From NCBI RefSeq assembly GCF_028532485.1, contig NZ_CP116942.1, positions 3,968,001 through 4,032,000 of the forward strand: 64,000 nucleotides of DNA, read 5' to 3'. Shown piece by piece: positions 27,491 through 32,627 of this stretch (position 1 is the stretch's first letter; every line of letters begins with the position of its first letter). This DNA is from Iamia majanohamensis (lineage in GTDB: Bacteria; Actinomycetota; Acidimicrobiia; Acidimicrobiales; Iamiaceae). Below the pieces are notes generated by a model. The model was given only the letters and a program-made list of their open reading frames with translations, ran no database searches and was not told where the DNA came from. The position numbers and the translations under genes are program-made.

Positions 27491-28927
27491 TCAGATGTCG
27501 TAGTAGAGGGTGAACTCGTAGGGGTGGGGGCGCAGGCGGAGGGCGTCGACCTCGTTGACCCGCTTGTAGGCGATCCACGTCTCCAGCAGGTCGTCGGTGA
27601 AGACGTCGCCGGCGCGGAGGAAGTCGCTGTCGGCCTCGAGCGCGTCGAGGGCGGCTTCCAGCGACGCCGGCACCTGGGGCACGTCGGCCAGCTCCTCGGG
27701 CGGCAGGTCGTAGAGGTCCTTGTCCACCGGGTCGGGCGGCTCGATGCGCTTGTCGATGCCGTCGAGGCCGGCCAGCAGCATGGCGCTGAAGGCGAGGTAG
27801 GGGTTGGCCGTGTTGTCGGGGCAGCGGAACTCGACCCGCTTGGCCTTGGGCGACAGGTTGGCCAGCGGGATGCGGCACGAGGCCGACCGGTTGCGCTGGC
27901 TGTAGACGAGGTTCACCGGCGCCTCGTAGCCCGGCACCAGCCGCTTGAAGCTGTTGGTGGTCGGGTTGGTGAAGGCCAGCAGCGCCGGGGCGTGGTGGAG
28001 CAGGCCGCCGATGTACCAGCGGGCCAGGTCCGACAGCCCGGCGTAGCCGCCCTCCTCGTAGAAGAGGGGCTCGCCGCCCTTCCAGAGCGACTGGTGGGTG
28101 TGCATGCCCGAGCCGTTGTCCTCGAACACCGGCTTGGGCATGAAGGTGAGGCTCTTGCCCGCCTCCCAGGCCGTCGACTTGAGGACGTACTTGAAGGTCA
28201 TGAGCTTGTCAGCCATGGCCAGCAGGGTGTCGAAGCGGATGCCGATCTCGCCCTGGCCGCCGGAGGCGACCTCGTGGTGGTGGAGCTCGACGGGCACGCC
28301 GACCTGCTCCAGGTTGAGCGCCATCTGCGACCGCAGGTCGTGGAGGTGGTCCATGGGCGGCACCGGGAAGTAGCCCTGCTTGGTGCGGGGCTTGTAGCCG
28401 AGGTTGGGCTGCTCGTCGCGCCCGGTGTTCCACTGCCCCTCGTCGGAGTCGACGGAGTAGAAGGCGCCGTTGGAGCGGGTCTCGAAGCGGACGTCGTCGA
28501 AGACGAAGAACTCGGGCTCGGGCCCGAAGTAGGCGGTGTCGGCCAGCCCGGTGGAGTAGAGGTGCTGCTCGGCCTTGCGGGCGATGTGGCGCGGGTCGCG
28601 GCTGTAGCTCTCGCCCGTGACCGGGTCGGCCACGAAGCAGTGGAGCACGTAGGTGGGGTGCGGCCGGAAGGGGTCGAGGTAGCCGGTGTCGGGGTCGGGC
28701 ACGAGGATCATGTCCGACTCCTGGATCTCCTGGAACCCGCGCACCGACGAGCCGTCGAAGGGGTGGCCGGTCTCGAAGTGGCCCTCGGTGAGGGCCTCGG
28801 CCGGGATGGTGACGTGCTGCATCACCCCGGGCAGGTCCGAGAACCGGAAGTCGACGAAGGCGACGTCCTGGTCGCTGATGGTGTCGAGCACCTCGGCGGG
28901 GGTGCGCTGCTCCACGGGGACCTCCAT
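27491..28927 (-). CDS. glnA: Glutamine synthetase type I-beta
   Basis: A 478-residue [81 protein letters not shown], and [19 protein letters not shown] carries Y406, the expected adenylylation tyrosine, so activity is probably switched by GlnE. It makes glutamine from glutamate, ammonia and ATP. Its last codons (TYR-TYR-ASP-ILE) form the right copy of the 12-bp direct repeat. Confidence 0.96.
27492..27503. repeat. Right copy of the 12-bp direct repeat, inside the glnA 3' end
   Basis: CAGATGTCGTAG is the reverse complement of the last glnA codons plus part of the stop. The intact stop is completed by the T at 27491, which the left copy lacks. The low-GC stretch lies on the left side only. Confidence 0.5.
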
Positions 28928-29076: not shown

Positions 29077-30084
29077 TCAGGAGGCGGCCGAGCAGATCGT
29101 GTTGGTGATGAGGCGGGTCACGACGTAGGGGTCCATGTTGGCGTTGGGCCGACGGTCCTCGATGTAGCCCTTCTTGTCCTGGGCGACCTGCCAGGGGATG
29201 CGGACCGAGGCGCCGCGGTTGGAGACGCCGTAGCTGAACTCGTTCCACGGGGCGGTCTCGTGCAGGCCGGTGAGGCGGTGCTCGATGTCGGGGCCGTAGC
29301 CGGCGACGTGCTCCTCGACCTTGCCGGGGGCGCCGAGCGCCTCGCAGGCGGCGATGATCGGGTCGTAGCCCTCGCGCATGGCCTTGGTCGAGAAGTTGGT
29401 GTGGGCCCCGGCGCCGTTCCAGTCGCCCTTGACCGGCTTGGGGTCGAGGGTGGCGGCGACGTCGAAGTCCTCGGCGATGCGGTACAGCAGCCAGCGGGCC
29501 AGCCACATCTCGTCGGAGACCTCCAGGGGGCCCACCGGGCCGACCTGGAACTCCCACTGGCCGGGCATGACCTCGGCGTTGATGCCCGAGATGGTGAGCC
29601 CGGCGGTGAGGCAGGCGTCGAGGTGGGCCTCGACGATGTCGCGGCCGTAGACCTCGTCGGCGCCGACGCCGCAGTAGTAGAAGCCCTGCGGGGCCGGGAA
29701 GCCGCCCTTCGGGAAGCCGAGGGGGTGGCCGTCGGAGAAGAAGGTGTACTCCTGCTCGATGCCGAACATCGGCTCCTGGTCGGCGTACTTCTCGGCCACC
29801 TCGCGCAGCGCGGCCCGGGTGTTGGTCGGGTGCGGCGACATGTCGATGAGCATGACCTCGCACATGACGAGGACGTTGTCGCCGCCGCGGATGGGGTCGG
29901 GCACGACCCGGACGGGCTTCAGGACGCAGTCGGACATGTCGCCGGGCGCCTGGTTGGTGCTGGACCCGTCGAAGCCCCAGATGGGCCACTCCTTCGGGGC
30001 CTCCGCCACCACCTTGGTCTTGGACCGCAGGCGCGCAGCCGGCTCGGTGCCGTCGATCCAGATGTACTCGGCCTTGATCGCCAC
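29077..30084 (-). CDS. glnII: Glutamine synthetase type II (eukaryotic-type)
   Basis: A 335-residue GSII: AEYIWIDGTEPAARLRSKTK, then WGFDGSSTNQAPG, FGIEQEYTFF, WEFQVGP, KGDWNGAGAHTNFSTKAMR and SNRGASVRIP. GSII enzymes form decamers, are not adenylylated and are heat-labile; Streptomyces and Frankia carry one beside GSI. GTG at 30084 has GAAGGAAG upstream. An 11-bp-periodic repeat (30156-30188) lies about 70 bp upstream of the start. Confidence 0.95.
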   Translation of the reverse strand: MAIKAEYIWIDGTEPAARLRSKTKVVAEAPKEWPIWGFDGSSTNQAPGDMSDCVLKPVRVVPDPIRGGDNVLVMCEVMLIDMSPHPTNTRAALREVAEKYADQEPMFGIEQEYTFFSDGHPLGFPKGGFPAPQGFYYCGVGADEVYGRDIVEAHLDACLTAGLTISGINAEVMPGQWEFQVGPVGPLEVSDEMWLARWLLYRIAEDFDVAATLDPKPVKGDWNGAGAHTNFSTKAMREGYDPIIAACEALGAPGKVEEHVAGYGPDIEHRLTGLHETAPWNEFSYGVSNRGASVRIPWQVAQDKKGYIEDRRPNANMDPYVVTRLITNTICSAAS

Positions 30085-30155
30085 GGGCGACTTCCTTCTC
30101 TCGGTCTGTGGGGCTGGGGGACCGCAGGACGATGCCAGGAGGCCGTGTCCCACCC

Positions 30156-30188
30156 GTTTCCCGAATGTGAACGTGGTGTGAACCCCGT
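30156..30188 (-). promoter_or_regulatory. Triple 11-bp direct repeat upstream of the GSII gene
   Basis: On the plus strand GTTTCC, GTGAAC and GTGAAC begin at 30156, 30167 and 30178, exactly 11 bp apart. Read on the GSII strand the last two are GTTCAC, the core of Streptomyces PhoP direct-repeat units. OmpR-family proteins bind such repeats as tandem monomers. Confidence 0.55.
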
Positions 30189-30281
30189 CGCGGACCCCCG
30201 AGGAGGGTAGCCAGGGCCTGCGGGGAGCCCCGGATCGCCCGGTCACCACCCCGGGCGGGCCCCGGCGCGGGCGCCGGAGCC

Positions 30282-30303
30282 ATGAACGCAATGTGAACTG
30301 GGC
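30282..30303 (+). promoter_or_regulatory. Double 11-bp direct repeat upstream of the GSI-alpha-like gene
   Basis: ATGAAC at 30282 and GTGAAC at 30293 are 11 bp apart. AATGTGAAC is identical to part of the repeat at 30165, so the same regulator probably binds both sides of this divergent intergenic region. It ends 45 bp before the GTG at 30349. Confidence 0.5.
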
Positions 30304-30348
30304 CCGCGTCGGCTTGCGGGTGGGGACGACGGCAGCGAGCATGCGACG

Positions 30349-31686
30349 GTGGATCCGCAGAAGGCCTACGTCCTCCGCACCGTCGAGGAGCGGGGTGTCC
30401 GACTCATCCGCCTGTGGTTCACCGACGTGGTGGGCCAGATGAAGTCGTTCGCCATCTCCCCGGCCGAGCTCGAGTCCGCCTTCGACGAGGGCATGCAGTT
30501 CGACGGCTCGGCCATCGACGGCTTCAGCCGCATCCAGGAGTCCGACGTCCTGGCCCGGCCCGACGCCGGCACCTTCGAGCTGCTCCCGTGGGGCCAGACC
30601 GACGAGACCGCGGCCCGCATGTTCTGCGACATCACCAACCTCGACGGCACGCCGTTCGAGGGCGATCCTCGCCACGTCCTCAAGCGCAACCTCGACCGGG
30701 CCCGGGAGCGGGGCTTCAGCTTCTACGTGGCCCCGGAGATGGAGTTCTTCTACTTCGCCGACGGCGAGGGCCACGGCCGGCCGCCGGTCCCCCTCGACAC
30801 GGGGTCCTACTTCGACCTCACCACCGCGGACGTGGCCTCGGACCTCCGCAAGCGGACGATCCACACCCTCGAGGCCATGGGCATCCCCGTGGAGTACTCG
30901 TTCCACGAGGACAGCCCGAGCCAGCACGAGATCGACCTGCGCTACACCGACGCGCTGACCATGGCCGACAACGTGATGACGTTCCGCCTGGTCGTGCGGG
31001 AGATCGCCATGGAGCGCGGCGCCTACGCCACGTTCATGCCCAAGCCCCTCTCCGACGTGCAGGGCTCGGGCATGCACACCCACATGTCCCTGGGCGAGGG
31101 CGACACCAACGCCTTCGCCGACGCCGGCGACCCCTACCGGCTCTCGAAGGTCGGCCGCGGCTTCATCGCCGGCCTGCTCGAGCACGCCCCCGAGATCACC
31201 GCCGTCACCAACCAGCTGGTCAACTCCTACAAGCGGCTCATCCCCGGCACCGAGGCCCCGGCCCACGTGTCCTGGGCCCGCAACAACCGCTCGGCGCTGG
31301 TGCGGGTGCCGGTCACCAAGTCGGGCAAGGACTCCTCGGTGCGCATCGAGTACCGGGCCCCGGACCCCGCCTGCAACCCGTACCTCGCCTTCTCGGTCGT
31401 CCTCGCCGCCGGCCTCAAGGGCATCGACGAGGGCTACGACCTCCCGGCCGAGACGACCACCAACGTCTTCGAGCTGACCCCGGCCGAGCGGGCCGCCGAG
31501 GGGCTCCGCGAGCTGCCCCAGTCCCTCGCCGAGGCGCTCGACGTGATGGAGCGCTCCGAGCTGGTGGCCGAGACCCTCGGCGAGCACATCTTCAGCTGGT
31601 TCATCCGCAACAAGCGCAACGAGTGGTCCGACTACAAGGCACAGGTGACCCCCTACGAGCTGGAGCGCTACCTGCCGACCTGGTGA
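30349..31686 (+). CDS. Glutamine synthetase type I (alpha-like, non-adenylylated)
   Basis: A 445-residue GSI: FTDVVGQMKSFAIS, FDGSAIDGFSRIQESD, APEMEFFYF, HEDSPSQHEIDLRY, KPLSDVQGSGMHTHMSL, and NNRSALVRVP. At the adenylylation position the sequence is NVFELTPAERAAEGLRELP: the tyrosine is a phenylalanine, so GlnE control is not expected. It is similar to mycobacterial GlnA2-type enzymes. GTG start. Divergent from the GSII gene; mini-ORFs and the GlnR-like gene follow on the same strand. Confidence 0.93.
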   Translation: MDPQKAYVLRTVEERGVRLIRLWFTDVVGQMKSFAISPAELESAFDEGMQFDGSAIDGFSRIQESDVLARPDAGTFELLPWGQTDETAARMFCDITNLDGTPFEGDPRHVLKRNLDRARERGFSFYVAPEMEFFYFADGEGHGRPPVPLDTGSYFDLTTADVASDLRKRTIHTLEAMGIPVEYSFHEDSPSQHEIDLRYTDALTMADNVMTFRLVVREIAMERGAYATFMPKPLSDVQGSGMHTHMSLGEGDTNAFADAGDPYRLSKVGRGFIAGLLEHAPEITAVTNQLVNSYKRLIPGTEAPAHVSWARNNRSALVRVPVTKSGKDSSVRIEYRAPDPACNPYLAFSVVLAAGLKGIDEGYDLPAETTTNVFELTPAERAAEGLRELPQSLAEALDVMERSELVAETLGEHIFSWFIRNKRNEWSDYKAQVTPYELERYLPTW

Positions 31687-31834: not shown

Positions 31835-31944
31835 GCACCGGGAGCGAGCGCAGCGAGCGAGCCCGACGACACGGGCCCTCCGACGGCGGAGCCTGCGGAG
31901 CCGGCGGCCACCCGCGCCACGAGGACGGGAGCGAGGGCCGATGA
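31831..31944 (+). CDS. 37-codon mini-ORF, copy 2 of a duplicated unit
   Basis: Starts MSTGSERSERARRHGPSDGG and ends EDGSEGR. Its TGA overlaps the ATG of the GlnR-like gene at 31941, again as ATGA. It contains the repeat GAGCGAGCGCAGCGAGCGAG, a low-complexity string common in high-GC genomes. Function unknown; see the tandem-unit finding. Confidence 0.35.
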   Translation: MSTGSERSERARRHGPSDGGACGAGGHPRHEDGSEGR

Positions 31945-32627
31945 GCCTCGAGCCCTGGCTGGTCTACCCCGACCCCCCGCCACCGGAGCTGGTGCAGACC
32001 CTCGAGCTGGCCGGCCACGCCTGGAAGGCGGTGGCCGACGAGAACGCCGTGGTCCGGATGGAGTCCGACACCGTGTGGCGCGGCGCGGTGGTCCTCCTCG
32101 GCGACGCGTCCGAGTCGGGCCTGGCGGTGTGCCGGGCCCTGCGCAAGCGCGACATCCCGATCGAGCCGGTGCTGCTGCTGGTCCGGGGGGCGGGCCTGGC
32201 CGACCTCGAGCTGCGCGACGACCTCTACGACGACTTCTGCCTCGACCCGTTCCACCCCCGCGAGCTGGAGGCCCGCCTCCGGCACCTGCTGTGGCGGGCG
32301 GGCACCGGCACCGGCCCGGAGATGATCGAGCACGGCGGGCTGGCCCTGAACCTGGAGACCTACCAGGCCGCCATCGACGACCGGCCCCTCGACCTCACCT
32401 ACATGGAGTACGAGCTGCTCAAGTTCCTGGCCCAGCACCCGGGCCGGGTGTTCACCCGCGAGACGCTGCTCAGCCGGGTGTGGGGCTACGAGTACTACGG
32501 CGGGGCCCGCACCGTCGACGTCCACATCCGGCGCCTCCGGGCCAAGCTGGGCGAGGAGCACGCCGGTCTCATCACCACCGTGCGCTCGGTGGGCTACCGC
32601 TTCGGCCAGTCCCGCTGGGGCGGCTGA
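31941..32627 (+). CDS. GlnR-like OmpR-family response regulator
   Basis: A 228-residue regulator with a poorly conserved receiver half (no N-terminal acidic pair; starts SLEPWLVYPDPPPPEL) and a full winged-helix DNA-binding half (YMEYELLKFLAQHPGRVFTRETLLSRVWGYEYYGGARTVDVHIRRLRAKL, then VRSVGYRFG). GlnR, the global nitrogen regulator of actinomycetes, is likewise an orphan OmpR protein with an atypical receiver. Its place after three glutamine synthetases supports that role. No partner kinase lies nearby. Its ATG overlaps the stop of the mini-ORF. Confidence 0.82.
   Translation: MSLEPWLVYPDPPPPELVQTLELAGHAWKAVADENAVVRMESDTVWRGAVVLLGDASESGLAVCRALRKRDIPIEPVLLLVRGAGLADLELRDDLYDDFCLDPFHPRELEARLRHLLWRAGTGTGPEMIEHGGLALNLETYQAAIDDRPLDLTYMEYELLKFLAQHPGRVFTRETLLSRVWGYEYYGGARTVDVHIRRLRAKLGEEHAGLITTVRSVGYRFGQSRWGG

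Follow-up and report, generated by a model that had tools for sequence, protein, structure and literature searches.

A predicted four-unit operator of GlnR type at the glutamine synthetase genes of Iamia majanohamensis and other Acidimicrobiia

The window analysed here, a stretch of 64,000 nucleotides from the genome of Iamia majanohamensis, contains divergent genes for GSII and for a GSI-type glutamine synthetase (GS), and the region between them carries direct repeats at 11-bp steps. The repeats on the GSII side are real and lie far above chance. Judged from sequence comparison, positions 30145-30183 probably form a four-site operator of a GlnR-type regulator of the OmpR family, most likely the one encoded at 31941. 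Among the papers listed in a literature search on GlnR and nitrogen regulation in Acidimicrobiia, none was a study of GlnR in this class; one of them concerned tRNA synthetases. The results amount to a predicted operator code for nitrogen control in a class of Actinobacteria that is largely uncultured and under-studied.

Repeat units between the divergent glutamine synthetase genes

The region comprises the following features, given in window coordinates.

27491-28927, minus strand: GSI-beta type glutamine synthetase gene (glnA1), downstream of GSII (TIGR00653, 660 bits)
29077-30084, minus strand: GSII gene (glnII), start codon GTG at 30084, stop codon at 29077-29079 (NF041605 GlnII, 671 bits, cut-off 500)
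30129-30134, minus strand: putative -10 hexamer CATCGT of the GSII promoter, starting 10 nt past unit 4
30145-30150, minus strand: operator unit 4, GGACAC (plus strand GTGTCC), in phase with units 1-3
30156-30161, minus strand: operator unit 3, GGAAAC (b-type)
30167-30172, minus strand: operator unit 2, GTTCAC (a-type)
30178-30183, minus strand: operator unit 1, GTTCAC (a-type)
30282-30298, plus strand: two-unit element ATGAACn5GTGAAC facing GSI (units 30282-30287 and 30293-30298)
30314-30317, plus strand: TTGC, possible part of the -35 region of the GSI promoter, 15 nt past the dyad, a recurring spacing
30349-31686, plus strand: GSI-type glutamine synthetase gene (TIGR00653, 461.9 bits, cut-off 429; orthologues in 54 of 61 genomes)
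31941-32627, plus strand: gene for a GlnR-like OmpR-family regulator, candidate binder, 3' of GSI (Trans_reg_C, 97 bits; GlnR_1st, 19.8 bits, cut-off 27)

Read on the minus strand from 30183 to 30145, the GSII side has the order GTTCAC-GTTCAC-GGAAAC-GGACAC at 11-bp steps, followed by 10 nt and then CATCGT; units 1 and 2 both read GTTCACA, with A as the seventh base. The first-pass annotation had named three units facing GSII, GTTTCC (30156-30161), GTGAAC (30167-30172) and GTGAAC (30178-30183), all of which are present where it placed them at 11-bp steps, but its count of three fell short, as it missed the fourth in-phase unit GTGTCC (30145-30150), which by comparison belongs to the same element. 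The pair that it had described as facing GSI, ATGAAC (30282-30287) and GTGAAC (30293-30298) at an 11-bp step, is likewise found there. The two sides differ in design, with a four-unit operator 10 nt from a -10 hexamer facing GSII and a reverse-oriented two-unit element 15 nt from TTGC facing GSI. A sigma-70 promoter with a normal -35 region was not found within 30060-30360.

According to the mechanism proposed here, four regulator subunits would line up head to tail on the DNA, one every 11 bp, and the bound array would end 10 bp from the -10 hexamer, occupying the usual place of the -35 region. The predicted transcription start of GSII is near 30122. An OmpR-type activator standing in for the -35 region is established at PhoB-type promoters. 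The regulator would switch on GSII, presumably under nitrogen shortage, and the divergent operon of GSI and the regulator would have an operator of its own in the pair at 30282-30298, whereby the regulator would be autoregulated.

In a genome scan for GTGAAC at 11-bp steps, as the first-pass annotation had suggested, the 4.58-Mb genome was found to contain six exact GTGAACn5GTGAAC dyads, where about 0.10 are expected from base composition, and 16 dyads when one mismatch was allowed, compared with 7 for the reversed control. Two of the six exact dyads precede pst genes; the other four are found at this GSII, between a deaminase gene and an NMT1/THI5-type gene, in front of the pyruvate kinase gene, and within an ATP-grasp gene at its predicted 5' end. 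With up to 3 mismatches allowed in its 24 specified bases, the four-unit pattern was found 33 times in 29 of 61 genomes, a set consisting of I. majanohamensis and 60 relatives, whereas the reversed control gave no match. A scan of the I. majanohamensis genome with up to 3 mismatches gave six tetrads (control: 0), which are located at GSII, in the deaminase/NMT1 region, at the ATP-grasp gene, at a gene for a winged-helix protein in the vicinity of amtB, at the start of an ABC-transporter gene that has an amidohydrolase gene beside it, and at the start of a glnD-type gene; those at the winged-helix, ABC-transporter and glnD-type genes have 3 mismatches each. The view that the repeats arose by chance or have no regulatory role could draw on the window itself, in which loose dyad matches (3 mismatches or fewer) show no enrichment (21 matches versus a shuffle mean of 31.5), a count that is dominated by weak matches. 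Set against the excess of exact dyads, the tetrads that are absent from the control, and conservation over many genera, this view has next to no probability, and for the GSII side it is in effect refuted by conservation.

Conservation across Acidimicrobiia and at other nitrogen genes

A tetrad score of at least 17 out of 24 was reached by 43 of 53 GSI upstream regions versus 1 of 1060 shuffles with dinucleotides kept, and by 50 of 70 named loci (70 usable of 80) versus 1 of 700 shuffles that kept base composition only, the two sets overlapping in some genomes. The remaining 10 GSI upstream regions and 20 named loci fell below this threshold. The spacing of the operator before GSII or glnA1 is usually unchanged across Acidimicrobiia, and a NANNNT hexamer lies exactly 10 bases past unit 4 in 69 of 95 unique GS contexts. 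Among the 66 unique GS sites scoring at least 19, which were selected by their consensus match, position 5 of unit 1 is always A and its positions 2-3 are always TT, and the fourth position of the 5-nt box is A in 100%, 100%, 95%, and 98% at units 1 to 4, respectively.

The presence of the tetrad is associated with the neighbouring gene. Of the 51 named loci in which GSII or glnA1 is the divergent gene, 48 have it, compared with 2 of the 19 with another neighbour. In 17 genomes of the latter group, GSII was detected elsewhere; 13 of the 16 upstream regions used (from 19 GSII matches) carry a tetrad of at least 17 out of 24 pointing at GSII, judged against shuffles that kept base composition only, and the other three are no better than the best shuffle. 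Thus, the operator goes with the GS gene and not with the regulator gene, and a linkage of the operator to the regulator gene was rejected. At 1e-100, no match to glnA1 was obtained in the 17 genomes that lack a divergent GS, an empty answer that with this search does not show absence. Two of the GSII matches (L351 and L359) contain one in-frame TGA each, which is either a sequencing error or real, and a metagenome assembly titled Bifidobacterium breve (L295) carries an Acidimicrobiia-type locus, so that its title is probably wrong.

Related sites were also found at ammonium transporter genes. The matrix used for this comparison was built from 35 GS sites, so that GS scores are not independent of it, while the amtB and relocated-GSII sets lie outside. 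The amtB set consisted of 107 of 114 matches; one stretch was too short for the matrix scan, and two were left out of a looser score. With the GS-trained matrix, 28 of 107 amtB upstream regions exceeded the maximum of composition-preserving shuffles (6.1 bits), 27 of these 28 sharing one orientation, and 79 did not exceed it. With the looser score, which was designed after the sites had been seen, 65 of 105 lay above the 99th percentile of shuffles of the same kind. Two of the three amtB upstream regions of I. majanohamensis (L200 and L253) pass only this score, designed after the fact, and the third (L114) falls below it. Many amtB promoters keep the 10-base register to a NANNNT hexamer, and genome G060 has a tetrad between amtB and glnD. 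The element, with predicted related operators at amtB, glnD, the deaminase cluster, and the ATP-grasp gene, is thereby a marker of a nitrogen regulon.

Several of these places show further features. The stretch between the NMT1/THI5-type gene and the deaminase-type amidohydrolase (genome about 631.65-631.87 kb; L018 6648-6875) mirrors the GSII/GSI layout, with a tetrad on one side and a dyad-n15-TTGC arrangement on the other; the genes nearby include one for an adenosine deaminase and more for amidohydrolases and ABC transporters. In two genomes (L369 about 1501-1538; L071 1501-1539), a gene for a circularly permuted ATP-grasp protein has a GS-like tetrad at its 5' end; the predicted start codons of this gene are probably too far upstream, and it is a possible member of the nitrogen regulon. 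Near amtB (L370 930-1478), the sequence GTTCAC-CGAAAC-CGAAAC-n10-TACGGT points at the gene for a small winged-helix-domain protein, which adjoins a protein with a cyclic-nucleotide-binding domain.

The candidate regulator and the Pho boxes

The OmpR-type protein encoded at 31941 is the best candidate binder of the operator. It has a winged-helix domain and a receiver-like N-terminal part, in which the alignment shows no invariant Asp at the expected place. Its profile scored 168.6 bits against the solved structure 8hih, 164.8 against 8hig, 140.2 against 8hml, and 104.1 against MtrA. A Foldseek search with the predicted model (pLDDT 80.9) ranked 8hih, GlnR of M. tuberculosis, first with 40-41% identity, and the DNA-binding domain of GlnR from S. 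erythraea matched with 60% identity. The protein is called GlnR-like because its score with the Pfam family GlnR_1st, 19.8 bits, is under the cut-off of 27. Matches over this cut-off occur in 9 of 61 genomes, five of them read by coordinates as the GSI-adjacent gene. The regulator gene stands beside GSI in all 30 loci examined, and in 79 of 80 named loci it is preceded by GSI.

A different regulator of the OmpR type, for instance an MtrA-like protein, might be the main binder, the neighbouring gene being incidental. I. majanohamensis encodes several proteins of this type (nine matches, including 31941 itself), and for Streptomyces an action of MtrA on nitrogen genes has been reported (PMC10704036, in part). 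This is unlikely in view of the regular linkage of the regulator gene to GSI, the GlnR proteins as nearest solved relatives, and the fit of the units to published GlnR boxes (PMC10704036, in part).

The first-pass annotation had recognized GTTCAC as the core of Pho repeats, rightly so, and Pho-type boxes do exist in these genomes: a GTTCACn5GTTCAC dyad pointing at pst is found at most 1.5 kb upstream of pstC in 20 of 20 places (19 genomes). The pst box of Acidimicrobiia reads [GTTggg-n5]-GTTCACC-n4-GTTCACC and is mostly located 32 nt from a TA-type -10 hexamer, the same distance as that of the GS dyads. The pst boxes of I. majanohamensis lie at genome positions 462004 and 463269 (L017 5005-5021 and 6270-6286); further pst loci are L144-L163. 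A gene for an OmpR-type regulator is found near the pst-phoU genes of this genome. All this would suit a reading of the dyads as Pho boxes that are bound mainly by a PhoP/RegX3-type regulator encoded next to pst-phoU, GSII then being phosphate-regulated. Units 1 and 2 agree with the Pho core, the dyad and its distance to the -10 hexamer are shared with pst, a regulator gene of the right type is at hand, and PhoP of Streptomyces competes with GlnR at glnA, glnII, and amtB (PMC4415409 and PMC10704036, both in part).

GS and pst sites are, however, separated by the seventh base of the two a-type units, where A prevails at GS (51 and 56 of 66) and C prevails at pst (17 and 18 of 20), by unit 3, which ends in AAC at 51 of 69 GS sites versus 0 of 21 pst sites, and by an extra upstream GTT unit, present at 16 of 21 pst sites versus 1 of 69 GS sites. 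The pst promoters lack the GGMAAC-GGAAAC half that is present at GS, and related four-unit sites occur at nitrogen genes. In a leave-one-out classification from the dyad region alone, all 21 pst sites and all but one of the 69 GS sites were assigned to the right class. Regulation of GSII mainly through a Pho box is thus very unlikely, and PhoP was set aside as the primary binder at GS because the two classes of dyads separate almost perfectly. Of the two binders offered by the first-pass annotation, a GlnR-like protein or a PhoP, the former held up, as the element is a marker of nitrogen genes and the solved structures closest to the 31941 protein are those of GlnR; PhoP in a primary role did not, as GS and pst dyads consistently differ. 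By analogy to Streptomyces, PhoP may compete for the GS operator.

A Pho-like pair is present in 2 of 107 amtB upstream regions versus 43 of 53 GSI upstream regions. More speculatively, and with a probability that is low though not slight, the GS operator of Acidimicrobiia could be a fused nitrogen-phosphate switch, in which units 1 and 2 keep the pst core and register so that a phosphate regulator competes with or joins GlnR, and units 3 and 4 serve GlnR only. If so, phosphate would tune ammonium assimilation and would spare ammonium uptake, since the Pho-like pair is missing from most ammonium transporter promoters.

The pair facing GSI is less clear-cut than the GSII-side tetrad. Exact dyad-n15-TTGC arrangements occur at 12 places in the 61 genomes; read by contig and coordinates, 10 belong to GSI, one to a deaminase gene, and one (L108) lies near a gene for a tyrosinase-domain protein. 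This arrangement facing GSI is not general, as TTGC, judged by eye, is missing in most relatives with a single operator. One operator apparently serves both genes in genome G003, and genomes G000, G001, and G002 have two. This suggests that the two elements of the window may derive from one shared operator. The GSI operon probably has its own operator in the pair at 30282-30298. The pyruvate kinase gene has an exact upstream dyad (L019 4730-4746) in the GTGAAC orientation near TCATACT. The dyad score of the GSI-side pair is weakly GS-like (3.5), and the scores of the deaminase dyad (-5.1) and the pyruvate kinase dyad (-4.2) are pst-like. Due to these ambiguous or pst-like scores, the three dyads are not firmly assigned to GlnR.

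Relation to known GlnR and PHO boxes

The sites described here show how two OmpR-type regulators with a nearly identical core could stay apart via one flanking base and the neighbouring units. With their equal -10 spacing, the GS, amtB, and pst promoters form a natural comparison set for the divergence of GlnR and PhoP specificity.

GlnR and PHO boxes have been described in PMC5826061, PMC4415409, and PMC10704036, each of which is cited here for part of its content. Published GlnR boxes read Gc/aAAC in M. smegmatis and t/gna/cAC in S. erythraea, with an invariant A as the fourth base of the 5-nt box (PMC10704036, in part). By its sequence, the GS element can be classed as a variant GlnR box with its units in the order a-a-b-b. 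As in Streptomyces, Mycobacterium, and Saccharopolyspora, direct units stand at 11-bp steps as pairs of pairs and are located at nitrogen genes, which here are GSII, glnA1, amtB, glnD, and the deaminase cluster. The b-type GMAAC at GS matches the box of M. smegmatis and the a-type TTCAC fits that of S. erythraea, and both the A at the fourth position and the targets GS and amtB are shared (PMC10704036, in part). The order of units differs, being a-a-b-b at GS in contrast to the known alternating a-b-a-b (gTnAc, GaAAc); the a-type unit is TTCAC instead of gTnAc, and the amtB sites are nearer to a-b-b-b.

With the PHO box, which consists of GTTCACC direct repeats bound by PhoP, the GS element shares the GTTCAC-n5-GTTCAC core, the 11-bp step, and the distance to the -10 hexamer seen in the local pst boxes, but its seventh base is A and not C, the upstream GTT unit is missing, and two b-type units are added. 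The GlnR transcription activation complex of M. tuberculosis (8hih) contains the nearest solved relative of the 31941 protein. Four head-to-tail DNA-binding domains have been reported for this complex, as four units would need (PMC10704036, in part). The 31941 protein is only 40-41% identical to this GlnR, and the likeness presented here comes from sequence and predicted structure.
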